From positions 1 to 33,631 of the forward strand of contig DQOF01000172.1 in assembly GCA_015658775.1 (NCBI GenBank): DNA of 33,631 nucleotides, written 5' to 3'. Shown here piece after piece: positions 1-14,991 of this stretch. A program made the position numbers and the translations under genes. The stretch is from Acidimicrobiia bacterium. GTDB taxonomy: Bacteria > Actinomycetota > Acidimicrobiia > Acidimicrobiales > MedAcidi-G1. The stretch's first letter is position 1. The number at the start of each line of letters is the position of its first letter. A model generated the notes under the pieces. It was not told the DNA's origin, did no database searches, and worked only from the letters and a program-made list of their open reading frames with translations.

Positions 1-83
1 GATACCCGACGCACTATCCGAGCCAGTTGGCCCTCGGCCTCGAGCGCGTCGATGAAACTCCGCAGGTCGGCGATCTCAGCCAT
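1..83 (-). CDS. UbiD-family decarboxylase, N-terminal fragment truncated by the window edge
   Basis: Reverse strand from ATG at 83 reads MAEIADLRSFIDALEAEGQLARIVRRV, resembling the UbiD N-terminus (DLR.FL..LE..GEL.RI...V). It lies 46 bp downstream of the amidohydrolase on the same strand, with ubiX nearby. Confidence 0.65.
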   Translation of the reverse strand, partial: MAEIADLRSFIDALEAEGQLARIVRRV

Positions 84-129
84 TGCCGGATTCTATGCCA
101 CTGTCGTTCGGTTGGTGACCGGCGTCGGC

Positions 130-1356
130 TCAGCCGGGCCGGTGGATGCGGGTCTGCTGCTCGGAGGATGCAACGAGCACTCCGCGTCGGAAGACGCGGC
201 GCGACATGGGAGCATCGGCGATCGCCGCCCGTACCGACGGCGCGTCGATGGCCACCAGATCGGCTACATCGCCGGGCTGGATGGACGACTCCGGAAGGCC
301 CAGGGCCTCCCGGGCGTTCTCGCTAACCATCCGGTATGCATCCTCCGGTGCCTGGTGGCCCGCCATGACCAGGAGGGCCGCGGTCTCCAGCGGATCGCTG
401 CGACCCACCAGGTTGAACGGATCCTGGACGTTGTCGGCTCCGGCGGCCACGAGCACGCCCGCCTCATGGAGTGCGGCGATGGCGGTCAGGCCCCGCGGTG
501 TCGCGGATGGATGGTCACGGCCCTGGAGGAAGAGGTTCGTCTGGGGAAGGGGGAACACCCGGATACCGGCCTCTGCGACCAGAGCCGCCACCTCAGCCTG
601 CACGTCGGGCTGCTGCATCCCGAGGGTTACGCAGTGGCCCGCCGAAACCGAATACCCGAATCCGGTGTCGATGACCTGACGAGCCAACTCACGGACGGTC
701 AATACGGACGGATCCAGTATCTCGTCGACATGTAGGTCCACGCCTATGCCCGCCTCGGAGGCGACCTCGAGGGCATGTGAGATCAGGCCTGGCCCGTCGG
801 GGTCAAGGTGGGGGCAGCCGCCCACCAGGTCGGCTCCGGCTTCGATGGCTGCTGCAAGGGCGGCCCTGTTGGCTCTCCCCTCCGGCCCTGTCATCGGGTT
901 GCTTGTAAGGGCGACGATCTGAACGTCCATGAGGCCTTCCATGCGGAGGGCGGCCTCCTGGACGGCTCTCAGGCTTTCGGTTCCTGCACCAACGTTGACG
1001 TGTGTGCGAACGGCGGTGACCCCGTGGACCAGCAGCAGTTCCATTGCCCTTGCCGCACGTTCTGCCGTGTCCTCGTAACTGAACCTCCCGGCCGCTGCGG
1101 CTGAGACCCATGCATCGATGGCGCCGCGGAGGTCGCCGGTCCTGTTGGGCACCGACTCTGCCGTGAGTGCCTTGTCGAGGTGGGCGTGCGGCTCCGCCAT
1201 GGCGGGCAGGACCAGCCAGCCACCGAGCTCCTCGCCAGGAAGGTTCCCGTCGATCGGCCTTCCGGCCTTCCGGACTTCGTGGACCAACCCATCGACCGTG
1301 TGGATGTCCACCCGCCGTCCGTCGGCCAACGTGGCGTCATGCAGGACGAACTCCAT
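130..1356 (-). CDS. Amidohydrolase, cytosine deaminase-like
   Basis: Translation MEFVLHDATLADGRRVDIHTVDGL... with metal-site motifs HAHLD, HVDE, SAGHC and ADNVQDPF typical of cytosine deaminase-like amidohydrolases. The ORF track starts at 1557, but similarity-like sequence begins at the ATG at 1356. Confidence 0.85.
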   Translation of the reverse strand: MEFVLHDATLADGRRVDIHTVDGLVHEVRKAGRPIDGNLPGEELGGWLVLPAMAEPHAHLDKALTAESVPNRTGDLRGAIDAWVSAAAAGRFSYEDTAERAARAMELLLVHGVTAVRTHVNVGAGTESLRAVQEAALRMEGLMDVQIVALTSNPMTGPEGRANRAALAAAIEAGADLVGGCPHLDPDGPGLISHALEVASEAGIGVDLHVDEILDPSVLTVRELARQVIDTGFGYSVSAGHCVTLGMQQPDVQAEVAALVAEAGIRVFPLPQTNLFLQGRDHPSATPRGLTAIAALHEAGVLVAAGADNVQDPFNLVGRSDPLETAALLVMAGHQAPEDAYRMVSENAREALGLPESSIQPGDVADLVAIDAPSVRAAIADAPMSRRVFRRGVLVASSEQQTRIHRPG

Positions 1357-1540
1357 TGCGCTCACCACACTCCGTGTACAGGGCCGGTGGCCGCAGGCTG
1401 TTCGCGCCGACGGCCGTTCCGATACTACCGAGGGGCCTCGATCCAGGAGTGTCTGGTGGGGAGGGCGGCGGAGAGCCATGGTAGGAATGGATTCATGGTT
1501 GGCGTTCCCCCTGGCAGGATTTCGGCACGTGGCTGACGCC

Positions 1541-2125
1541 ATGAGGAGGGTGATCATAGGCCTGACCGGTGCCAGTGGGGTCGCCTATGGCATCCGTGCC
1601 CTGGAGATGCTGGCCGGGCTGGCCGACGTCGAGTCACACCTCATCCTCACCTCGGCGGGCAAGTTGACGATCGGCATGGAGACTGATCGATCGGTTGCAG
1701 AGGTGGAGGGTCTGGCCGACATCGTCCACCCTGTCAGGGACATCTCTGCTGGACCTGCCAGTGGGTCATTCCGGTCGGCGGGAATGCTGGTGGCGCCCTG
1801 TTCGATCCGGGCACTGTCGGCGATCGCCAACTCCCATAGCGCAGACCTCCTTGTTCGGGCTGCGGACGTGACCCTGAAGGAGCGGCGTCCCCTGGTCCTG
1901 ATGGTCCGTGAGGCACCACTGCACCTCGGGCATCTCAGCCTCATGTCCCGGGTGACGGAAATGGGCGGGATCATCTTCCCGCCGATGCCGGCTTTTTACA
2001 CGCAGCCAGCGTGCCTCGACGACGTCGTCTCCCACACCGCTGCCAGGGCACTCGAGTTGCTGGGTGTCGAGTTGAGTGGAATGTTTCGGTGGGAGGGGCC
2101 GGATCGTCCTGTTTCAGGTGGCTGA
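1541..2125 (+). CDS. ubiX: UbiX-family flavin prenyltransferase
   Basis: MRRVIIGLTGASGVAYGIRALEML...LVAPCSIRALSAIANSHSADLLVRAADVTLKERRPLVLMVREAPLHLGHL...GGIIFPPMPAFY: canonical UbiX/Pad1 motifs. Confidence 0.93.
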   Translation: MRRVIIGLTGASGVAYGIRALEMLAGLADVESHLILTSAGKLTIGMETDRSVAEVEGLADIVHPVRDISAGPASGSFRSAGMLVAPCSIRALSAIANSHSADLLVRAADVTLKERRPLVLMVREAPLHLGHLSLMSRVTEMGGIIFPPMPAFYTQPACLDDVVSHTAARALELLGVELSGMFRWEGPDRPVSGG

Positions 2126-2187
2126 CCGGCCGTTCCGGTGGCGTGGCCGGTGGGGTTTGGGGGGCGAGTTGAGGTTATGGTGAGTCC

Positions 2188-2967
2188 ATGTCCGGACGTC
2201 TGGCAGACCTTTCGGGGCCGGAGGTTGCGTCGGCCATTGGCGCCGATTCGGTTGTATTGCTGCCCGTAGGGGCCATCGAGCAGCACGGACCGCACCTGCC
2301 GATGTCGGTCGACGCCGTCATCGCCGACGAGGTCGCCTCGGCCCTCCTCGAGACGGTGGGCGACGACATCGACCTGTGGCTGTTGCCGACGCTGACGGTT
2401 TCGAAGTCCAACGAGCATGCCTGGTCGCCGGGGACGCTCTGGCTGAGCGCCGGGACCATGTTGCGGGTGCTCGACGACCTGGCGTCCTGTGTGGCCACCA
2501 CGTCGGCCCGGAGGCTGGTGTTGCTTAACGCCCATGGAGGCAATTCGTCTCTACTGTCCGTCGCCTGTCGTGACATCAGGGTGAAGCACGGCCTGTTGAC
2601 CTTCCTCGTCCATCCGTGGACGCCACCCGCCTCGGGTGGTCCAAGTACCGAAGAGGAGTTAGGTATGGGTATCCACGGCAGCCGCAACGAAACGTCGGTC
2701 TTCGCCCACTTACGACCTGGCGAGGTCGACATGAGCCGTGCGGTACGCCGGGTACCCGAGTGGCTGGCCGAGAACCGATGGGTGCGCTTCGGTGGGCCGG
2801 TGCAGTTCGGCTGGACCAGCCGGGATTTTGGACCGGATGGCCATATCGGCGATCCGACAGGTGCAGATCCGGAACTGGGTAAGAAGTTGTTCGAAGACTC
2901 TGTGGTCGCTCTGGCCGACCAGTTGAGGGAGATCAGCCGGTTCGATTTTCCGCATGATCTGACGTAA
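2188..2967 (+). CDS. Creatininase-family amidohydrolase
   Basis: LLPVGAIEQHGPHLPMSVDAVIAD...LNAHGGNSS...GIHGSRNETS: creatininase/MftE/FAPy-deformylase family motifs. Confidence 0.9.
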   Translation: MSGRLADLSGPEVASAIGADSVVLLPVGAIEQHGPHLPMSVDAVIADEVASALLETVGDDIDLWLLPTLTVSKSNEHAWSPGTLWLSAGTMLRVLDDLASCVATTSARRLVLLNAHGGNSSLLSVACRDIRVKHGLLTFLVHPWTPPASGGPSTEEELGMGIHGSRNETSVFAHLRPGEVDMSRAVRRVPEWLAENRWVRFGGPVQFGWTSRDFGPDGHIGDPTGADPELGKKLFEDSVVALADQLREISRFDFPHDLT

Positions 2968-3000
2968 GCGTCTCGCGGATCCGTGGGGCATGATGGCGCC

Positions 3001-3234
3001 GTGCAGATCACCGCCGAGTTCACCGTCGAGCCGTTCGTCGAGGGGGCGCCCGGCCCCCATGTCCTGGCCGCCATCCAGGTCGCCGAGTCGGCCGGCCTGG
3101 CCGTTGACGTGGGGCCGTTCGGAACCACCGTGGTGGGCGAGTCGGGGTTGGTGTTGCGTACGGTCGACGGCCTAGTCCGTGCAGCGATCGACAGCGGCGC
3201 CACCAGGGTTTCCCTCCAGTTGACCGTCGGCTGA
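3001..3234 (+). CDS. Thiamine-binding-like protein (UPF0045/MTH1187/YkoF type)
   Basis: GTG start; MQITAEFTVEPFVEGAPGPHVLAAIQVAESAGLAVDVGPFGTTVVGESGLVLRTVDGLVRAAIDSGATRVSLQLTVG matches the short ferredoxin-like family pattern (EPF..G.PG.HV..AI..A...GL.V..GPFGT). Confidence 0.7.
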   Translation: MQITAEFTVEPFVEGAPGPHVLAAIQVAESAGLAVDVGPFGTTVVGESGLVLRTVDGLVRAAIDSGATRVSLQLTVG

Positions 3235-3344
3235 CCTGCCGGTGGCAATCCGCCCGGATATCTGACAGAGTGTCGAACGCTTTGGCGCGGGCCGACGGGG
3301 ATCGACAGAGCGGTTCTGACCGCGCCAGACGGAAGGGGATACAG

Positions 3345-4424
3345 ATGCATCGACGACTCCTCGGCCTGCTGGCCGTGGTCCTGAGCCTCGGAATGGTCGC
3401 AGCGGCCTGTGGTTCCGACGCTACCGCCGAGACCAAGGCCGCGTTCATCTACGTCGGGCCCGTGGGCGACGCAGGCTGGACCTATGCCCACGACCAGGGC
3501 AGGCAGGCCGCAGCAGCCGAGACGGGCATCGAGACGGCGTATGTGGAGACCGTGCCCGAGGGCACCGCCGACTTCGGCAACTACGTGCGCGAGTTCATCG
3601 ACCAGGGATTCACCGTCATCATCGGCACCTCGTTCGGCTACATGGACGACATGCTGGCCCTCGCAGACGAGTACCCGGACGTCGTGTTCGAGCACGTCTC
3701 AGGCTTCAAGCAGAACGACACCAACTTCGGCAACACGTTCGGCCGCATGTACGAGCCCCGCTACCTGACAGGCATGGTCGCCGGTTCGGCCACATCCTCG
3801 AACCTGCTGGGATATGTGGCCGCCTTCCCGATCCCCGAGGTCATCCGGGGCATCAACGCCTTCACCCTCGGCGTCCGCGAGGTGAACCCCGACGCACAGG
3901 TCGAGGTGATCTGGACCAGCACATGGTTCGATCCGGCGGTCGAGGGCGACTCGGCCCAGGCCCTGCTCGACAAGGGGGCAGACGTGATCGCCATGCACCA
4001 GGACTCCACCGCCGCAGGCGAGAAGGCAGAGGCCGCCGGTGCCCGCTGGGTCTCCTACAACTCCGACATGAGCGCCTTCGCACCCAACGCCTACCTGACC
4101 GCACCAGTCTGGAACTGGGGCCCGCGCTACGCCGAGATAATCGAGGCGGCCAAGGCGGGCACCTACGTGCCGGGCGCCTACTGGGGTTCCATGGCCGACG
4201 GCGTGGTCGACATAGCCGACATCGCCGCCGACGTGGACGCCGGGGTGAAGGCTGCTGTCGCCGACAAGAAGGCGGCGATAATCGCCGGCGACTTCCACGT
4301 CTTCAGCGGCCCGATCAACGACCAGGACGGCAACCTGGTCGTCGGTGCGGGCGAGACCATGGACGACGGCTCGATGCTCGGCATGGACTTCTTCGTGGAG
4401 GGAGTGATCGGCTCCACCGGCTGA
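3345..4424 (+). CDS. BMP-family ABC transporter substrate-binding lipoprotein
   Basis: Lipoprotein signal MHRRLLGLLAVVLSLGMVAAAC; AAFIYVGPVGDAGWTYAHDQGR...; BMP/PnrA-like fold; followed by matching ABC genes. RBS-like GGAAGGGG upstream. Confidence 0.9.
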   Translation: MHRRLLGLLAVVLSLGMVAAACGSDATAETKAAFIYVGPVGDAGWTYAHDQGRQAAAAETGIETAYVETVPEGTADFGNYVREFIDQGFTVIIGTSFGYMDDMLALADEYPDVVFEHVSGFKQNDTNFGNTFGRMYEPRYLTGMVAGSATSSNLLGYVAAFPIPEVIRGINAFTLGVREVNPDAQVEVIWTSTWFDPAVEGDSAQALLDKGADVIAMHQDSTAAGEKAEAAGARWVSYNSDMSAFAPNAYLTAPVWNWGPRYAEIIEAAKAGTYVPGAYWGSMADGVVDIADIAADVDAGVKAAVADKKAAIIAGDFHVFSGPINDQDGNLVVGAGETMDDGSMLGMDFFVEGVIGSTG

Positions 4425-4448
4425 GCCGGTTGAAACCGACGAGATGAT

Positions 4449-4484
4449 CGGCGGCGCCGCGGGGCACTCCCGTAGGCGCCGCCG
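4449..4484 (+). promoter_or_regulatory. Strong intercistronic hairpin between the substrate-binding protein and ATPase genes
   Basis: CGGCGGCGCC (4449-4458) and GGCGCCGCCG (4475-4484) are a perfect 10-bp inverted repeat, with an inner CGGG/CCCG extension. No U-tract follows. Confidence 0.7.
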
Positions 4485-4517
4485 GTGCGTCCGGGGTCGG
4501 ATCGACGGTTTGAGGGC

Positions 4518-6098
4518 ATGCATACAGTCATGACCGGGGCGGGAGTGCTGACAACCGGACCGGCTGTCGAACTGCTCGGAATCTGGAAGCGCTTCCCGGG
4601 CGTCGTCGCAAACGCGGGCGCACACCTACGGGTCGAACGCGGCAGCATCCACGCAGTGCTCGGCGAGAACGGCGCCGGCAAGTCGACCCTCATGAACGTC
4701 CTGGCCGGCGTCTACCGTCCCGATGAGGGCGAGGTCTGGGTGGAGGGGGCCGCCCACCGGTTCAGGACGCCGGCAGACGCCCTGGCGGCCGGCATCGGAA
4801 TGGTCCACCAGGAGTTCAGGCTGGTGCCGTCGTTCACCGTCGCCGAGAACGTGGTCCTGGGTGCCGCCGGCCGACTGCTCCGTCGACAGGCGATCGAGGA
4901 CGAGGTGGCCGCCCTGGCCGACCGGTTCGGGCTGGCCACCCAGCCGGATCGACCTGTCTGGCAGCTCTCCATGGGTGAGCGCCAGCGGGTCGAGATCCTG
5001 AAGGCACTCTGGCGTGATGCCCGCATCCTGATCCTGGACGAGCCGACGGCGGTCCTCACCCCAGCCGAGGCGGACGAACTGGGCGCAGTCCTGCGACGCA
5101 TGGCCGACGCCGGCCGATCCGTCATCTTCATCAGCCACAAGCTCCACGAGGTGACCGGGTTCTGCGACGAGGCCACCGTGCTGCGCCGCGGTGAAACGGT
5201 CGCGGCGTCCCTTCCGGTCGCCGAGACGGGCGCTGCAGAACTCGCATCGCTCATGGTGGGGGCCTCGCCGGTGACCACCGGGCGTCCACCACCCCATCCG
5301 CCCGGCGAGCCGCTCCTCGAGGTGACGGGACTATCGGCCGTCGGCGACCGCGGCCTGACCGCCGTGGATGCCGTGGACCTGACGGTCCGGGCCGGCGAGA
5401 TCGTCGGCATCGCCGGTGTCGCCGGCAACGGCCAGAGAGAGCTGTGCCAGGTGATCACGGGGCTGCGCCCCTCCACGGGCGGAAGGGTGAGCCTCGCCGG
5501 AGTCGACCTGACACGGGCGTCGCCACGAACGCGTTTCCGGGCCGGCCTCGGCTACATACCCGAGGACCGGCTCGGCGTCGGCCTGGCGCCCCGGCTGTCG
5601 GTGGTCGACAACGCGATGCTGCGCACCTACGCGGAACACAGGAGGGGGCCGCTGCTGGTGGCGGATCGTGCCGCTGCCCACTGCGCCGAACTGGTCGAGC
5701 GGTTCAGCGTGCGTACCGGGTCGCTGGACGACCCGATCGCGGGACTCTCCGGCGGCAACCTGCAACGCCTCCTGGTCGGACGCGAGTTGAGCGAGCATCC
5801 GCGGGTCGTGGTTGCCGCACAGCCCACCAGGGGCCTGGACGTGCAGGGTGTGAAGTTCATCCAGGATCTCCTGATCGCCGAACGTGGGGCCGGTGTGGCC
5901 GTGCTGCTCATATCGGAGGACCTGGACGAACTGCTCACGCTCGCAGACCGCCTGCTGGTGATGCACGACGGGCGGATCGTCGGCGAGTTCGATCCCAACA
6001 CCGCCGCGCGCCGGGAGATAGGCGAGGCGATGGTCGGCCATGTCCGGGCATCCGGCGATGGCCCGTCCCGACCCGATCCTGCCGGGGAGGGCCCGTGA
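4518..6098 (+). CDS. BMP-type (nucleoside-like) ABC transporter ATP-binding protein with tandem ABC domains
   Basis: Two ATPase modules: GENGAGKSTLMNVLAGVYRPDEG...LSMGERQRVEILKALWRDARILILDEPTAVLTP and GNGQRELCQVITGL...LSGGNLQRLLVGRELSEHPRVVVAAQPTRGLDV. Start could instead be 4530. Confidence 0.92.
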   Translation: MHTVMTGAGVLTTGPAVELLGIWKRFPGVVANAGAHLRVERGSIHAVLGENGAGKSTLMNVLAGVYRPDEGEVWVEGAAHRFRTPADALAAGIGMVHQEFRLVPSFTVAENVVLGAAGRLLRRQAIEDEVAALADRFGLATQPDRPVWQLSMGERQRVEILKALWRDARILILDEPTAVLTPAEADELGAVLRRMADAGRSVIFISHKLHEVTGFCDEATVLRRGETVAASLPVAETGAAELASLMVGASPVTTGRPPPHPPGEPLLEVTGLSAVGDRGLTAVDAVDLTVRAGEIVGIAGVAGNGQRELCQVITGLRPSTGGRVSLAGVDLTRASPRTRFRAGLGYIPEDRLGVGLAPRLSVVDNAMLRTYAEHRRGPLLVADRAAAHCAELVERFSVRTGSLDDPIAGLSGGNLQRLLVGRELSEHPRVVVAAQPTRGLDVQGVKFIQDLLIAERGAGVAVLLISEDLDELLTLADRLLVMHDGRIVGEFDPNTAARREIGEAMVGHVRASGDGPSRPDPAGEGP

Positions 6099-7183
6099 TC
6101 CGACCGGTCCTGGTGCGACGCGAGGCGCCGCTGAGGGGCGGACAGCCGCTGTCGTTCGCGATCGGACTCGTTGTGGCGCTCACGATCGGCATCGTCCTGC
6201 TGATGGGAGCCGGACACGACCCGCTCGTCGTCTACGAGAGGATGTTCGTGGCCGCGCTGGGAGACCCCGACTCGTGGGCGGTCACGCTGAACCGTGCGGT
6301 GCCCCTCGGCCTGGCCGGCCTGGCGGTGGCGATCGCCGGATCGATGGGGCTCTGGAACATCGGAGCCGAGGGCCAGATCCTCGTCGGAGCGGTATTCGCG
6401 GCAGGGGTGGCCCGGGTCGGTGAGGGGTGGTCCGGCCCTGTGCTCCTGATGGCCATGCTGGCGGGTGGGGCCGTCGGCGGTGGCCTGTGGGCCCTGGGCC
6501 CGGCGGTGGCCCGGGCGAAGATCGGGGTCAACGAGATCCTCACGACCCTCATGCTGAACGAGGTTGCGCTGCGCCTCATCCAGTGGCTGATCCACGGGCC
6601 GTGGAAGGACCCGGACTCGTACAATTTCCCGCTGGCGCCCATGCTGCCCGAGCAGGGACACCTGCCGACGCTGTTCGGGCGCGCCCACATCGGGGTGGTT
6701 GTGGCCGTGGCGGTGATCGCCCTGTTCGCCGTCGCGGTCAACAGGACGGCATGGGGGTTCGAGCTCCGGGTGGCCGGATCCTCGGGTGCCACGGCCCGGT
6801 ACGCGGGAATCTCCCTCGAGAGGAAGATCCTGACCGTCCTGATGCTCTCGGGTGCTGTCGCCGGCCTCGCCGGGGGGATCGAGTTGGCGGGTACGGCCGA
6901 CCGGCTGACCGAGGGCATATCCAACGGCTTCGGGTTCGCCGGCATCATCGTCGCCGCCCTCGCGCTCATGCGGCCCTCGGGGGTCGCCGCCGTGGCACTG
7001 CTCTTCGGCGCTGTCCAGATCGGGGGCCAGAGCATCCAGACGCTTGGGGTGTCGTCGTCGGTGTCCACGATCCTCCAGGCCCTGATCCTCTTCGGTGCCA
7101 TCGGTGCCGGAGTGCTCAGCCGATACCAGGTCAGGTTGCTGCCAGGTGATCCGGAGCCGACCGACCGGCAGGCGGAGGCATGA
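6095..7183 (+). CDS. ABC transporter permease (BMP-associated, BPD_transp_2 family)
   Basis: GTG start overlapping the ATPase stop (GTGA). Hydrophobic; LNRAVPLGLAGLAVAIAGSMGLWNIGAEGQILVGAVFAAG...NEILTTLMLNEVA. Confidence 0.92.
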   Translation: MIRPVLVRREAPLRGGQPLSFAIGLVVALTIGIVLLMGAGHDPLVVYERMFVAALGDPDSWAVTLNRAVPLGLAGLAVAIAGSMGLWNIGAEGQILVGAVFAAGVARVGEGWSGPVLLMAMLAGGAVGGGLWALGPAVARAKIGVNEILTTLMLNEVALRLIQWLIHGPWKDPDSYNFPLAPMLPEQGHLPTLFGRAHIGVVVAVAVIALFAVAVNRTAWGFELRVAGSSGATARYAGISLERKILTVLMLSGAVAGLAGGIELAGTADRLTEGISNGFGFAGIIVAALALMRPSGVAAVALLFGAVQIGGQSIQTLGVSSSVSTILQALILFGAIGAGVLSRYQVRLLPGDPEPTDRQAEA

Positions 7184-8112
7184 GCGAGGCGTCCCTGATC
7201 GGCCTGCTCGCTGCGACGGTGTCGTTCGGCGCGCTCCTCTACCTGGCCGCGTTGGGTGAGATGGTCTCGGAGAAGGCGGGCATCCTGAACCTCGGCGTCG
7301 AGGGGATGATGGCCATGGGTGCGGTCAGTGGCTTCATGGCAGCACTGGAGTTCGGGAATCCGTGGCTGGCTCTGCTCATCGCGGTACTGACAGGTGCCGC
7401 CGTGGCACTGGTACACGGATGGTTCACGGTGGTGCTGGGCGCAGAGCAGGTGGTGTCGGGACTGTCGCTCACGATCCTGGGAATCGGCATGGCCGCGTAC
7501 CTCGGCAAGAACGCCGTCGGCCGACCGCCGGGAGCGGTGCTGGCGCCGGTCGACTGGCCGGTCCTGAGCGACATCCGGTGGTTGGGCCCCGTGCTGTTCA
7601 GGCAGTCTCCGATCGTCTACATGGCGGTCGCCGTCGGTGTGGTGGCCTGGCTCGTGCTTAGCCGCACACGGATAGGCCTGGCACTGAGGGCGGCAGGCGA
7701 GTCCGCATCCACCGCCGACGCCGCCGGGCACTCGGTGGTGGGTCTGCGGCTGGGCGCAGTGGCCGTCGGCGGCGGTCTGGCTGGGGCTTCGGGCGCCTAC
7801 CTCACCCTCTCGATCACGCCCCAGTGGGCCGAGGGCATCACCGCCGGCAGGGGCTGGATCGCCGTGGCGCTGGTCATCTTCGGGGCGTGGCGCCCGGGGC
7901 GGGTGGCGCTCGGGGCGCTCCTGTTCGGTGGCACCCTGGCGCTCAAGACCCGCCTGCAGACATTCGGCGTGGACTTCTCGCCGATCCTCCTGTCGATGCT
8001 GCCCTACCTGCTCACGATCGGGGTGCTGGTGGCGATCTCGATCAGGTCGCGGAACCGCCCGTCACCGGCGCCCGCGGCGCTCGGTATCGCCTACCGCCGC
8101 GAGGAGCGCTGA
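7180..8112 (+). CDS. ABC transporter permease (BMP-associated, second permease)
   Basis: ATGA overlap with the upstream permease; ALGEMVSEKAGILNLGVEGMMAMGAVSGF...GITAGRGWIAVALVIFGAWRPGRVALGALLFGG. Confidence 0.93.
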   Translation: MSEASLIGLLAATVSFGALLYLAALGEMVSEKAGILNLGVEGMMAMGAVSGFMAALEFGNPWLALLIAVLTGAAVALVHGWFTVVLGAEQVVSGLSLTILGIGMAAYLGKNAVGRPPGAVLAPVDWPVLSDIRWLGPVLFRQSPIVYMAVAVGVVAWLVLSRTRIGLALRAAGESASTADAAGHSVVGLRLGAVAVGGGLAGASGAYLTLSITPQWAEGITAGRGWIAVALVIFGAWRPGRVALGALLFGGTLALKTRLQTFGVDFSPILLSMLPYLLTIGVLVAISIRSRNRPSPAPAALGIAYRREER

Positions 8113-8138
8113 GCCCCTCCCGGCTCGAAGGGCAGGGT

Positions 8139-9350
8139 TCAGTGTCGGCGCTCTGCGCCGGTCAGGAGAACTACCACCGTCTCGTCCGGCCCTATCAGTC
8201 CGTCCCGCCTCGCCGCCAGCAGTCCGGCCACGCCTGCTGTTCCCGTCGGGTCGGCATCGACCTGCGTGTGGGCATGGACCAGCCGGTGCGCCTCGGCGAT
8301 CTCGGCTTCGGTGGCCACGATCGGCCCGCTGCGGTCGTCGAGCATCGCCCACACGATGGGCTGCCAGTCGTAGACGACATCGTCCAGGATGCCCGTGGCC
8401 AGGGAGGCCGGCTCCTCCCACGGCCACATGTAGCGGCCCGGCTCGCCGTCCACGACGGCATCCAGCGGGTCGTCCGACCGGCTCGCCATGTCGAACGCCC
8501 GGGCCAGTGGGGCACAGCCCTCGACCTGCACGGCGTGCAGCGCCGGTCGCACGTCGAGCACACCGAGGTCGACGGCATCGGTCAACGCCTGGACGGTCGA
8601 GCTGGCAAGGGCACCACCGCCGACCTGGATGAGAAGGTGGTCGGCGGCGGCCCCCCGGTCGGCCAGGTCGGATGCGAGCTCGAACCCGAGGGTCCGTCCG
8701 CCGTCGATCGTCATCAGGTTCTCGGTGCCCTGGCATCCGAACGGGATGGCGCCGTCGGTGACCAGTTCCCGGAATCGCAGCACGCACGGGTCGCCCGTCC
8801 CGCCCTTGCGGCGCTCGCAGACCCGCACGTCGGCCCCCAGGTCTGCCAGCCTGTCCAGGATTCCCGGGTCTGCCCAGGTCGGCACGTGTACCGCCAGGGG
8901 GCGGCCGGTGGCCCTGGCGACCACGGCCGCACCGAGGGCGGCATTCCCACACGAGGCGATGGCGAGCGGCGTGTCGGTGGGAACCCCGTCCACGGCCAGG
9001 TGGAGGGCCAGCCCGAAGAGGTGGCGGGCCTTGTGGCTGCCCGACACGTTGCCGGTCTCGTCCTTGCCGAACAGGCCGCCGGTGTGGCCCATGGCGGTGC
9101 CCAGGTCGCCGAGGTGCAGTAGGGGGGTGTGGCGGAACCCGCCGCCGTCCACCGAGGCCACGGAGTCGTCCAGACGATGGACGAGGTCGACGAAGCCTCT
9201 GTCGTCCATCCCTGTTTCGATCGCGTGGCGGTGGGACCAGAGAAGGTGGCGGAATCGGACGAACGGGTTGGGGTCGGTCTCGTCGCCGGAGGGCCAGCGG
9301 GCTTCTGCCGGCCTGCCCAGCCAACCCACGGGCTTCGCCGGGGAGCTCAC
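8139..9350 (-). CDS. PLP-dependent fold-type II enzyme (threonine synthase/dehydratase-like)
   Basis: [23 protein letters not shown] (PLP lysine context), [19 protein letters not shown] (phosphate loop), [10 protein letters not shown] (Gly-rich motif). Confidence 0.88.
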
Positions 9351-10909
9351 CCGGTGTGCAGTACCCCGGTCCGGGCGTTGAACTCATCGATCATGGCGTC
9401 CCACACGGGTGCCAGGCCGTGCAGGTCCTGCCAGAAGTCCTGGTCGCGGCGGGCCTCGAAGTCGTCCAGGTCCACCCCCTGCTGCTCGACCCAGGTGAAG
9501 TAGCCCAGGTTGAAGATGCGGTTCCGGCCGATCTCGTCGAGCACCTCGACGTGCGACCCGTCGGCGCCTGCCAGGTGTTCGTCGACGGCGGCGGCCGCCT
9601 CGTCGGCGCCGAACCCCGCCGCGTAGCGGCCGGCCTGCATGGCCTCACGTTCGCTGCCGTACATCTCCGCGCCATCGGTGGCTACGGTGACGATGGCGTC
9701 GTCGGGGCCCAGGCCCAGGACCTTGGCCGTCTTGATCGCCGCCAGGACGTTGCAGATGCTGGAGAGGCCGAAGTGTCCGAGTTGGTCGACGACCGTCCTG
9801 TCCACGCCGTGCCTGTCGGCAAGGAACCCACGGCCGGCGTCGGTGTTGAAGACGACACCGAGCTCGTCGCAGGCCCGGTCGCTGACGGCGACCACCACGT
9901 CGGTGTTGGTGACGTTGTGGATGAACGGTATGTGCTTGTCGCCTATGCCCTGGATGTTGTGCTCGCCGAAGCCGTTGTAGAGCATCGTCGGGCACTCGAG
10001 GGCCTCGACGGCCACGATCCGTGCACCGTGGTCGGACTTGAGGCGTTCGCCGGCGGCGAGGGTGCCCGCCGACCCTGATGCGGCCACGAACGCGGCCAGT
10101 CGCAGGCCCGGCTGCCCGCTCTTGTAGTGGAGGTAGAGGTGCTCGAGGGCCCGTCCTGTCACCTCGTGGTGGCCGACGTGGTTGGCGAATTCGGTGAACT
10201 GGTTGAGGATGAAGTTTCCCGGGTCCCTGCCGAGTTCGTCGCAGGCGTCGTAGATCTCCTTGACGTTGCTCTCCGAGCCGGTGGTGCGGATCACGTCGTC
10301 GGGGTCGGCTATCCACCGGTCCAGCCACTCGAACCGCTCCCTGCTCATGTTCTCAGGCAGGACGGCGACGCCTCGGGAGCCCATGAGGCGCGAGATGGCG
10401 ACGCCTCCGCGCGCGTAGTTGCCGGTGGACGGCCAGATCGCACGGTGCTGGGTGGGGTCGAACTGGCCTGTGACAACCCGGGGGACCAGGCAGGCATAGG
10501 CGGCGAGCACCTTGTGGGCACCGATCATCGGGAACCGGTTGCCGAACGCCACGATGATAGGAGCCTCGACCCCGGTCAGTTCTGCGGGCAGGACCACGTG
10601 TTCGGTCAGGTCCACCATGCCGCCGTGGAGGTCGTTGTACCAGTGGACGCGGAAGAGGTTCAGCGGGTCGGCGGCGTCGCGGTCGATCCCGGCCAGCGAG
10701 GACCGGATGTCGGCCGGGATCAGGGAGGGGTCGGCCAGTTGGGCGAAGGTGGGCAGGACTATTCCCTGCGTGCGGAAGCGCTCGACGCTGCGCTCGTAGC
10801 GCCCGGTGTCGACGACCTCGGTGAACAGCCCGAACCGGTTCCTGTCGAAGGCCCTGCCCGGATCGGGCGCACCGGAGGCGCCCGCTTCGATACCGCTGGC
10901 TCCGTCCAT
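9347..10909 (-). CDS. PLP-dependent fold-type II enzyme (cysteine synthase-like, long variant)
   Basis: [74 protein letters not shown]. Overlaps the downstream PLP gene by 4 bp. Confidence 0.85.
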
Positions 10910-11805: not shown

Positions 11806-14800
11806 ATGCCCATGGACAGCCTGGGCATGGACGGGACATCCGTCCCCTATGCCGAGTTGCACTGCCACTCGCACTTCAGCTTCCTGGACGGGGCATCCGA
11901 CCCCGCCGAGCTGGTGGCCGAGGCCGTCAGGCTGGGGCTCACCGCCCTGGCCATCACCGACCACGACGGCTTCTACGGGGTGGTGCGGTTCGCCGCAGCG
12001 GCCCGTGAGCACGACCTCCCCACGGTGTTCGGCAGCGAGCTGTCGCTGGATGCCCCGTCCGCCCGGACCGGGCACCCCGACCCACCCGGCACCCACCTGG
12101 TGGTGCTCGCCGAGGGCCCTGCCGGGTACGCCCGGCTCGGCACCGCCATAGCCGAGGCGCAGCTTGCGGGGAGCAAGGGCCATCCCCGGCTCTCCCTCGA
12201 CGGCCTGACGGACCTGTTCGAGGCGGGCGCCGGGGGAGCAGGCCACGCCCCCTGGGTGGTGTTGACCGGTTGTCGCAAGGGGGCGGTACCCACCGCCCTG
12301 CTGGCCGACGGCCCGACGGCCGCCCGCCGCGCCCTCGACGACCTGGTGGCCCGGTTCGGCCGCGACCGGGTGGTGGTCGAGCTCTGGGACCACGGCCTCC
12401 CCCTCGACGCCGAGCGGAACGAGACCCTCGCCCTTCTGGCCGTGTCGGCCGGTGTCACCGTCGTGGCCACCAACAACGTCCACCACCACCGGCCGTCCCG
12501 TCGCCGCCTGGCCACCGTCATGGCGGCGATCCGGTCACGCCGCTCCCTCGACGAGCTGGACGGCTGGTTGCCCGCTGCCGGAGGCGCCCACCTCCGCTCG
12601 GGTGTCGAGCAGGCCCGCCGGTTCGCCCGCTTCCCCGGGGTGGTCGAGGCGGCCGCCGACCTGGGTCGGCGCTGCGCCTTCGACCTGGACCTGATCGCCC
12701 CCGACCTGCCGCCCTATCCGTGCCCCGACGGGCTGGACGAGATGGCGTACCTGGGTCGTCTGGCCGAGGAGGGGGCCACCGACCGGTACGGGCCCCGGGG
12801 GGCCGAGCGGGTGGCCGGGGCGTGGGCCCGGATCGACCACGAGTTGGCGGTCATCGGGCAACTCGGATTCCACGGCTACTTCCTCGTGGTCTGGGACCTG
12901 GTCGAGTTCTGTCGGCGATCCGGAATCCTCTGCCAGGGTCGGGGGTCGGCGGCCAACTCCGCCGTCTGCTACGCCCTCGGCATAACCAACGCCGACGCCG
13001 TGGGCCTGGGCCTGCTGTTCGAACGGTTCCTCTCCCCGGAGCGGGACGGTCCGCCCGACATCGACATCGACATCGAGAGCGGGCGCCGCGAAGAGGTCAT
13101 CCAGTACGTCTACGGGCGCTACGGGCGCCGCCACACCGCCCAGGTGGCCAACGTCATCACCTACCGGGCCCGCTCGGCGGTGCGTGACGTGGCCAGGGCC
13201 CTCGGGTACGCCCCCGGCCAGCAGGACGCCTTCGCCAGGGGGCTGGAGCGCAGGTCGCGGGTCGGCCCGCCCGGTGGGGAGAAGGGCGGGGGCATCCCGG
13301 CAGAGGTCGCCGACCTGGCCGACGAGCTGTGCGATGCCCCCCGGCACCTCGGCATCCACTCTGGGGGCATGGTCATCTGCGACCGCCCGTTGGCCGAGGT
13401 GTGCCCCGTCGAGTGGGCACGCATGGCCGATCGCAGCGTCCTGCAGTGGGACAAGGAGGACTGCGCAGCGGTGGGCCTGGTCAAGTTCGACCTGCTGGGG
13501 CTCGGCATGTTGAGCGCCCTCCACGGTTCCATCGACCTCATCGCCGCCCACGAGGGTGTCGAGGTGGACCTGGCCCACCTGCCCCAGGAGGAGGCCGTCT
13601 ACGACATGATCTGCGCCGCCGACACCATCGGGGTGTTCCAGATCGAGAGCAGGGCCCAGATGGCCACCCTGCCCAGGTTGCGGCCCCGCTGCTTCTACGA
13701 CCTGGTGGTCGAGATAGCCCTGATCCGGCCCGGGCCCATCCAGGGAGGGTCGGTGCACCCATACATACGGCGCCGCAACGGCCGCGAGCCGGTCACCTAC
13801 CTGCATCCACTGTGTGAGAACGCCCTGGCCAGGACCCTCGGGGTGCCGCTGTTCCAGGAGCAGTTGATGCAGTTGGCCATCGACGTGGCCGGGTTCACCG
13901 CCGTCGAGGCCGACCGCCTGCGCCAGGCCATGGGGTCCAAGCGCAGCCGGGAGCGTATGGCCGCCCTGCACGAGCGCTTCCGGGTCGGGGCCGCCGGCCG
14001 GGGCGTACCGCCCGACACCATCGAGCTCATCTGGGAGAAGCTGGCCGCCTTCTCCGACTACGGCTTCCCCGAGAGCCACTCGGTGTCCTTCGCCCACCTG
14101 GTGTACGCCAGTTGCTGGATCAAGCACCATCACCCGGCGGCGTTCTGCGCCGCCCTGCTGAACGCCCAGCCCATGGGGTTCTACGCCCCCCACACCCTGG
14201 TCCAGGACGCCCGCCGCCACGGGGTGGAGGTGCGCACCCCCGACCTGAACCTGTCGGGGGCCGACGCCTCCATGGAGGATGCCACCCCGGGGGAGCAGGG
14301 CCCGGCGGTCCGGCTGGGCATCGGCTCGGTGCGGGGTGTGGGGGCCGACCTGGCCGGGGCCATCGCCGCCGGTCGCCCCTACCGGTCCGTCGAGGACCTG
14401 CAGCGCCGGATAGGGCCGGGCCGGGCCGTCCTGGAGGCGCTCGCCACCACGGGGGCGTTCGGGTGCTTCGACCTGGACCGCCGGTCGGCCCTCTGGTCGG
14501 CCGGGGCGCTCGCCGGGTCGGGCGCCGATCGGCTGCCCGGAGTGGTCACAGGGGTGGATGCCCCACCGCTGCCGGCCATGTCGGCCCCCGAGGTGGCACG
14601 GGCCGACCTGTGGGCCACCGGGGTGTCGCCCGACGGGCACCCCACCCGGTTCGTGCGGGAGCGCCTGGCAGCAGAGGGGGTGCTGACGGCGGCGGACCTG
14701 CGCTCGGTGACTGACGGCGAGCGGGTGCGGGTGGCCGGCGTGGTGACCCATCGCCAGCGGCCGCCCACGGCGGGCGGGGTCACCTTCGTGAACCTGGAGG

Positions 14801-14991
14801 ACGAGACCGGCCTGGTCAACGTGATCGTGTCGAAGGGATGCTGGGCCCGTCATCGCGAGGTCGTCGTCGGGGCCGTGGCCCTCGTGGTCAGGGGCAGGGC
14901 CGAGGTAGCCGACGGGGTGGTCAACATCGTGGCCGAGCGTCTCTATCCGCTCAGCCTGGCACCACCCTCCAGGGCGAGGGACTTCCGCTGA
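11806..14991 (+). CDS. dnaE2: Error-prone DNA polymerase III alpha-type (DnaE2/ImuC)
   Basis: PHP domain YAELHCHSHFSFLDGASDPAELV...AITDHDGFYGV; polymerase motif GPPDIDIDIESGRREEVIQYVYGRYG; C-terminal OB-fold GVTFVNLEDETGLVNVIVSKGCW. SOS box upstream. Confidence 0.95.
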   Translation: MPMDSLGMDGTSVPYAELHCHSHFSFLDGASDPAELVAEAVRLGLTALAITDHDGFYGVVRFAAAAREHDLPTVFGSELSLDAPSARTGHPDPPGTHLVVLAEGPAGYARLGTAIAEAQLAGSKGHPRLSLDGLTDLFEAGAGGAGHAPWVVLTGCRKGAVPTALLADGPTAARRALDDLVARFGRDRVVVELWDHGLPLDAERNETLALLAVSAGVTVVATNNVHHHRPSRRRLATVMAAIRSRRSLDELDGWLPAAGGAHLRSGVEQARRFARFPGVVEAAADLGRRCAFDLDLIAPDLPPYPCPDGLDEMAYLGRLAEEGATDRYGPRGAERVAGAWARIDHELAVIGQLGFHGYFLVVWDLVEFCRRSGILCQGRGSAANSAVCYALGITNADAVGLGLLFERFLSPERDGPPDIDIDIESGRREEVIQYVYGRYGRRHTAQVANVITYRARSAVRDVARALGYAPGQQDAFARGLERRSRVGPPGGEKGGGIPAEVADLADELCDAPRHLGIHSGGMVICDRPLAEVCPVEWARMADRSVLQWDKEDCAAVGLVKFDLLGLGMLSALHGSIDLIAAHEGVEVDLAHLPQEEAVYDMICAADTIGVFQIESRAQMATLPRLRPRCFYDLVVEIALIRPGPIQGGSVHPYIRRRNGREPVTYLHPLCENALARTLGVPLFQEQLMQLAIDVAGFTAVEADRLRQAMGSKRSRERMAALHERFRVGAAGRGVPPDTIELIWEKLAAFSDYGFPESHSVSFAHLVYASCWIKHHHPAAFCAALLNAQPMGFYAPHTLVQDARRHGVEVRTPDLNLSGADASMEDATPGEQGPAVRLGIGSVRGVGADLAGAIAAGRPYRSVEDLQRRIGPGRAVLEALATTGAFGCFDLDRRSALWSAGALAGSGADRLPGVVTGVDAPPLPAMSAPEVARADLWATGVSPDGHPTRFVRERLAAEGVLTAADLRSVTDGERVRVAGVVTHRQRPPTAGGVTFVNLEDETGLVNVIVSKGCWARHREVVVGAVALVVRGRAEVADGVVNIVAERLYPLSLAPPSRARDFR

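Follow-up and report, generated by a model that had tools for sequence, protein, structure and literature searches.

The closest described system is the reductive uric-acid pathway, encoded in E. coli by XdhD-YgfM-YgfK-SsnA-HyuA-YgeW-YgeY-YgeX and in C. difficile by a UacX/UacY variant (PMC12507026, PMC12990295). Li et al. (2025) described the reductive pathway, listed SsnA in Actinomycetota, and predicted an F420-dependent luciferase-family reductase in the place of YgfK in Chloroflexota (PMC12507026). Here we compared this pathway with a locus of UbiX/UbiD, BMP importer, and pyridoxal phosphate (PLP) enzyme genes in an Acidimicrobiia bacterium. The stretch analyzed (the window) is the entire 33,631-bp contig C30 of a metagenome assembly (genome 2.0 Mb, 216 contigs, 90.5% complete). 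The UbiX/UbiD, BMP importer, and PLP enzyme genes span the junction of two neighboring catabolic modules and are not one set. Module A comprises a SeXDH-type Mo-hydroxylase, SsnA, an F420-type luciferase-family reductase (c9′), an 8-oxoguanine deaminase, a PF01910 protein, the BMP importer, and a PLP enzyme pair (PALP1 and PALP2). Module B comprises UbiD, UbiX, a CodA-like amidohydrolase, the creatininase-family hydrolase Crn, LLMa, an FAD oxidase, XdhD, SsnA2, and a NitT-type ATP-binding cassette (ABC) system; LLMb, YgfM, deaminase c11, LLM c9, and RidA were also found alongside it. It is probable that module A degrades a purine, via urate, by an F420-dependent reductive variant and that module B degrades a second purine-like heterocycle with a UbiD step.

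The two modules were distinguished in the loci of relatives (40 creatininase loci and 80 LLMa loci, with genes called by a simple codon-usage caller). Three genera of the same family (g2, g4, and g5) carried SeXDH, SsnA, c9′, the 8-oxoguanine deaminase, PF01910, and BMP-ABC, followed by convergent PALP1/PALP2, and their loci ended in the same flanking genes as those of the window, mostly including DnaE2. Where relatives lacked module B at this position, the PF01910 gene came directly after the 8-oxoguanine deaminase gene, with a spacing of 16-50 bp in seven loci (L178, L179, L181, L182, L184, L185, and L188). At this deaminase/PF01910 junction, the genus of the window had approximately 22 kb with the module B genes, among them UbiD, UbiX, CodA, Crn, LLMa, and XdhD. 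A comparable module B set was found on a different contig in g5 (L032, L036) and was located elsewhere in families f18, f27, f35, and f53 (L164-L167, L171). Two loci from the same genus as the window (L023, L024) kept the BMP and PALP genes and had neither UbiD nor UbiX.

The original prediction had instead proposed one UbiX/UbiD-centered pathway for a single heterocycle, handled successively by BMP import, CodA, Crn, UbiD, and the PLP pair. The contiguity of the genes agrees with this, as does the conservation of their order in genus g1 and, without BMP, in genus g3. Moreover, PALP2 was present in all genomes that have UbiD (22/22), and family f27 likewise has PALP2 close to UbiD (L164, L165). 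However, because sister genera carry BMP, PF01910, and the PLP pair together with purine genes and without UbiD, UbiX, CodA, or Crn beside them, a single pathway for all the genes is unlikely. PALP2 was also much more widespread than UbiD (157 vs. 22 of the 397 genomes of the order), and the L023 and L024 loci likewise speak against one pathway. Conservation of the neighborhood, which had been suggested as a check, held within the genus: single long contigs from other genomes of the genus (L025, L026) show the order UbiD-CodA-UbiX-Crn-PF01910-BMP-ABC-PALP1-PALP2 again, which is thus not due to chance. It did not extend to the sister genera g2, g4, and g5, where ubiX and the creatininase gene were not found beside BMP-ABC and the PLP pair.

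The left end of the window (1-304) overlaps contig C121 (L002:5058-5361) over 304 bp with 96.7% identity; the 10 mismatches suggest strain variation or that the assembly mixes strains. Contigs C50, C86 (reversed), and C121 were joined through exact 95-bp end overlaps, and C121 then joins the window, resulting in a C50-C86-C121-window island of approximately 46 kb. Continuity of the island in this genome is supported by the 95-bp and 304-bp overlaps and by single contigs from relatives that show the same gene order (L063-L066), two of which (L064, L065) keep it from SsnA2 through to the BMP importer. The named relatives are marine Acidimicrobiales, MedAcidi-G1 among them. The left part of the island contains, in order, an amidase, a CoxM/S/L-type hydroxylase, an AllC-like carbamoylase, a nitrilase, SeXDH, SsnA, the F420-type LLM protein c9′, and the 8-oxoguanine deaminase. 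The middle contains an M15-type protein, LLMb′, YqeC, YqeB, XdhC, SsnA2, XdhD, YgfM, deaminase c11, LLM c9, and RidA, followed by a NitT-type permease and ATPase, LLMa, the FAD oxidase, LLMb, and UbiD, and then, in the window, CodA, UbiX, and Crn. The right part, also in the window, contains the PF01910 protein, BMP, ABC, two permeases, PALP1, and PALP2. The gene list underlying the original prediction agreed with the window gene calls in coordinates and strands, and the genes it named were confirmed by these calls and by profile matches.

The BMP importer of module A is complete, with a lipoprotein, an ATPase, and two permeases. The BMP-family lipoprotein (3345-4424, + strand), a putative purine-binding component, matched the Brucella protein 3s99 (E 7e-83) and AtzT (E 6e-82) over its full length. 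Adenine was modeled in 3s99, and AtzT was guanine-bound with a KD of 0.11 μM (PMC6834077). All seven pocket positions of the window protein (W45, S96, F97, E165, W194, H218, and D220) are equal to those of 3s99. Relative to AtzT, residues S97, F98, E165, and W194 are kept, whereas Tyr45, Asn218, and Asn220 are replaced by Trp, His, and Asp, as in 3s99. The pocket therefore resembles those of known purine-binding proteins, and the protein is predicted to bind purines. The tandem ABC ATPase (4485-6098, + strand) has two PF00005 stretches, and its nearest NCBIfam family was a putative B6 ABC ATPase (NF047930; 469.7 bits, under the cut-off of 670). The two permeases (6095-7183 and 7180-8112, both + strand) matched PF02653. 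In two genomes of genus g4 (L181, L182), the BMP gene was absent or a short remnant, and the ATPase and permeases were retained. The small MTH1187/YkoF-type protein (2983-3234, + strand) matched PF01910 with 33.3 bits (cut-off 24.9); Pfam was its sole support, as no NCBIfam family matched.

The import and breakdown of an N-heterocycle, as originally predicted, agree with this full-length purine-binding homolog and its matching pocket and with the surrounding 46 kb, which contains Mo-hydroxylases, SsnA-like and 8-oxoguanine-deaminase-like hydrolases, and a carbamoylase. In 10 families, the PLP pair is linked to genes of these kinds. No support was found for the modified pyrimidine or thiamine-derived substrate that had also been proposed. 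Thiamine/hydroxymethylpyrimidine degradation, considered from the PF01910 protein and the NitT-type ABC system, had no supporting match.

Several enzymes of the island were related to those of the reductive pathway (E. coli reference cluster from NC_000913.3). The XdhD-like protein c20 matched E. coli XdhD with 34.8% identity over 1006 aa (536 bits), and the best NCBIfam match of the XdhD family was TIGR03313 (711 bits, under the cut-off of 1101.9). Identity to the E. coli counterpart was 28% for the YgfM-like protein c21 and 48% for the island YqeB; a YqeC relative was also present. The island SsnA gene, which is split at the C50/C86 join, was 38% identical to E. coli SsnA along 240 aa, and the best NCBIfam match of the SsnA family member was PRK07203 (262 bits, under the cut-off of 444). 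A HyuA-type gene lies outside the island (C37:42437-43831), its product being 57% identical to a relative's protein that passes TIGR02033 (500.7 vs. 393). No full-length YgfK match was found in the 90.5%-complete genome, which had only a partial GltD-like match (residues 453-847, 31%). F420-type LLM proteins, one of them at C86:15215-16216, adjoin SsnA, and from their family membership we infer that they use F420.

No match to YgeX was found at E 0.001 in the same genome. The PLP pair consists of two fold-type-II enzymes, both on the − strand, whose genes overlap by 4 bp: the threonine-synthase-like PALP1 (8139-9350; PF00291, 138 bits) and the 520-aa PALP2 (9347-10909; PF00291, 46 bits). The AlphaFold model of PALP1 had a predicted local distance difference test (pLDDT) score of 83.6, and its top Foldseek matches were threonine synthases; the PALP2 model was poor (pLDDT 45.9). 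PALP1 matched E. coli YgeX weakly (E 3e-7, 24% over 229 aa), so the pair was rejected as a plain YgeX ortholog. We scored the neighbors of PALP2 for SeXDH, SsnA, c9′, the 8-oxoguanine deaminase, AllC, nitrilase, HyuA, and BMP. PALP2 adjoined at least two of these purine genes in 21 of 43 sampled loci, which represented 10 of 22 families. The PLP pair may perhaps take the place of YgeX, given the same fold class, the same neighborhood, and the absence of any other candidate found.

Gene content, contig joins, conservation, linkage, and pocket residues were observed directly; functions in both modules are predictions from homology and neighborhood, down to the individual reactions, electron donors, substrates, and products. 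On this footing, module A would work as follows. The BMP system would import a purine, which would be degraded, probably via urate. A Mo-enzyme would convert it to yanthine, an F420H2-dependent dearomatization would take the place of the YgfK step, and SsnA and HyuA would open the ring. AllC/nitrilase-type enzymes, instead of YgeW/YgeY, would take off the carbamoyl group, and the PLP pair, in the place of YgeX, would cleave the diaminopropionate-like product.

In module B, only the first 27 codons of UbiD are in the window (3-83, − strand); the N-terminus they encode is identical to that of the UbiD on C121, so the fragment recognized at the left edge is the start of this protein. The complete UbiD (447 aa; L002:3797-5140) was the only one found in the 90.5%-complete genome and passed TIGR00148 (274.9 bits vs. 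244.85) and PF01977 (169.5 vs. 23.3). The flavin prenyltransferase UbiX (1541-2125, + strand) matched NF004685 (235 bits vs. 188) and TIGR00421 (207 vs. 108.9). UbiD was nearest to HmfF and AnInD, and its best structure matches were 6h6v and 7p9q. Residues H299 and R308, aligned with HmfF His296 and Arg304, were invariant (44/44). The role of these HmfF residues is in part our assumption, their numbering being unconfirmed in papers, and no HmfF-type membership is claimed for UbiD. The HmfF/AnInD branch decarboxylates five-membered or indole-type heteroaromatic acids (PMC8988006).

The CodA-like amidohydrolase (130-1356, − strand; PF07969) failed all cytosine-deaminase cut-offs (211 bits vs. 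403 for PRK07583, its best NCBIfam match, and 179 vs. 438). Its metal ligands are kept, and where E. coli cytosine deaminase has Asp-Asp, 65/65 homologs have Asp-Asn; the protein is not a typical cytosine deaminase. Crn (2188-2967, + strand; PF02633, E 1e-61) has an N-A-H-G-G-N motif that was invariant (57/57), and failed the equivalogs creatininase TIGR04448 (86 bits vs. 235), MftE, and IolN. Creatinine was rejected as a substrate, as both the creatininase and the cytosine-deaminase equivalogs fail. Crn was near XdhD/Mo-hydroxylase genes in other families as well, and its distance to XdhD was within approximately 17 kb in families f1, f17, f27, and f53.

Module B genes were linked in the 397 genomes of the order (UbiD in 22, XdhD in 33, and LLMa in 62; Fisher p-values ignore phylogeny). 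XdhD was present in 19/22 UbiD genomes (p 9e-21) and LLMa in 20/22 (p 7e-16), and 28/33 XdhD genomes had LLMa (p 7e-21). The distance between UbiD and LLMa was <11 kb in 19/20 genomes, including that of the window; in the 20th, both genes were at contig ends. LLMa-like genes were also found in unrelated contexts (L087, L090, similar; CaiB-like and other genes), so LLMa alone is no marker of module B. A TIGR03792/ABM small protein (c13) was directly 5′ of LLMa in many loci (L108:8413-8703 and 23 other members). The substrate-binding protein of the NitT-type system (c10) had no match in Pfam or NCBIfam, and a search of this genome did not detect it. In one relative (L028:2901-4101), its C-terminal second part ran into the contig end after the opening residues of a BMP domain; in two others (L032:11084-12569, L100:18236-19721), the C-terminal stretch read by eye like an OpuAC-type binding protein.

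XdhD, SsnA2, and c9 of module B are relatives of module A enzymes, c9 having 51% identity to c9′. A common substrate class for the two modules is our inference. Module B resembles a pathway that acts on a purine-related heterocycle and includes a step at a ring carboxylate, and it is an uncharacterized catabolic module that probably breaks down a related ring compound, its substrate being presumably a purine-like heterocycle bearing or gaining a ring carboxylate, which would be lost via a UbiD dependent on prenyl-FMN (prFMN). More specifically, and only tentatively, it may be a pathway not yet described, for a heteroaromatic compound that is purine-like but is not one of the common purines, with UbiD removing a five-membered-ring carboxylate. 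The paralogous XdhD/F420-reductase/SsnA2 set, a luciferase-type monooxygenase, and the FAD oxidase would then work with the prFMN-dependent UbiD. A 7-deazapurine such as queuine, degraded via 7-carboxy-7-deazaguanine, is a very unlikely candidate substrate, put forward because the latter compound resembles the indole-3-carboxylate of AnInD.

The same genes could serve a xanthinase-type (Rabinowitz) route, in which the pyrimidine ring of a purine is hydrolyzed to an imidazole carboxylate that is decarboxylated by UbiD, with deamination and ring opening by the CodA-like protein and Crn. The locus does combine a purine-type importer, several amidohydrolases, a deaminase, and a heteroaromatic decarboxylase, and hydrolytic and decarboxylative steps are known from the clostridial route (PMC12507026); the xanthinase pathway genes were left unassigned in the 2012 genome paper on C. 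acidurici. However, this route would make the LLMa monooxygenase-type protein, the FAD oxidase, and the F420-type reductases of module B superfluous, and the clostridial cluster was reported from Clostridia and Bacilli, which renders it doubtful. Equally hard to sustain is a reading as ordinary oxidative purine/pyrimidine salvage or creatinine use, with UbiX/UbiD serving an unrelated aromatic acid and the neighborhood being a loose catabolic hot spot: the Mo-hydroxylase, amidohydrolase, creatininase, and BMP families are common in nucleobase and creatinine use and some PALP2 loci are without purine genes, but the linkage is repeated over many families, and Crn and the CodA-like protein score under the respective cut-offs.

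Several observations weigh against the preferred reading of two purine-related modules. More than half of the PALP2 loci (22/43) were without two purine genes nearby, some of these loci being short, and in some genomes and loci PALP2 had no purine gene close by at all. PALP1 is more like threonine synthase than diaminopropionate lyase, and its fold matches give no specificity. Both the XdhD-type and SeXDH enzymes could work oxidatively. The SsnA, HyuA-family, and carbamoylase matches are at the family level, the SsnA relatives being under the curated cut-off, and several key proteins score under curated equivalog cut-offs. In addition, module B lies apart from module A in f27 and f35, and the linkage p-values are uncorrected for phylogeny.

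A DnaE2-type polymerase gene (window 11806-14991) follows the island and an ImuB/Y-family-like gene (L157:200-1777, by sequence appearance) precedes it. This pair, usually together in mutasome cassettes, here flanks approximately 44 kb of catabolic genes.

If the two-module reading is correct, reductive purine breakdown, known from gut anaerobes, would also occur in widespread marine and sponge-associated Acidimicrobiia, as a marine variant with F420-dependent and PLP-enzyme replacements. Part of the oceanic purine nitrogen would then take a route that uricase-based surveys miss. Module A would name candidates for the missing reductase and lyase, and N-heterocycle catabolism would gain, through module B, a decarboxylation step that is so far unexplained. 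No report on this gene combination or on purine use by MedAcidi was found in the literature.

Compared with known systems, the CodA-like protein has the fold family and metal ligands of the cytosine deaminase and AtzC amidohydrolases. UbiD differs from HmfF and AnInD in its context, as it occurs with UbiX among LLMa and XdhD genes, and no furan or indole locus was present in the loci read. The island and genome have in common with the reductive pathway an XdhD/XDH-type Mo enzyme, an SsnA-like aminohydrolase, a HyuA-family gene, the YqeB/YqeC/XdhC maturation proteins, and a fold-type-II PLP enzyme. Module A differs in having AllC-like and nitrilase-like genes where E. coli has YgeW/YgeY, the PALP1/PALP2 pair, and a BMP ABC importer instead of UacT; unlike the E. 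coli and C. difficile systems, its host is a free-living marine lineage. As judged from the gene set, module A would fit the F420-dependent variant predicted for Chloroflexota, and the right-hand half of the locus, for which the original prediction knew of no named pathway, closely resembles the reductive route for uric acid that Li et al. (2025) described (PMC12507026).

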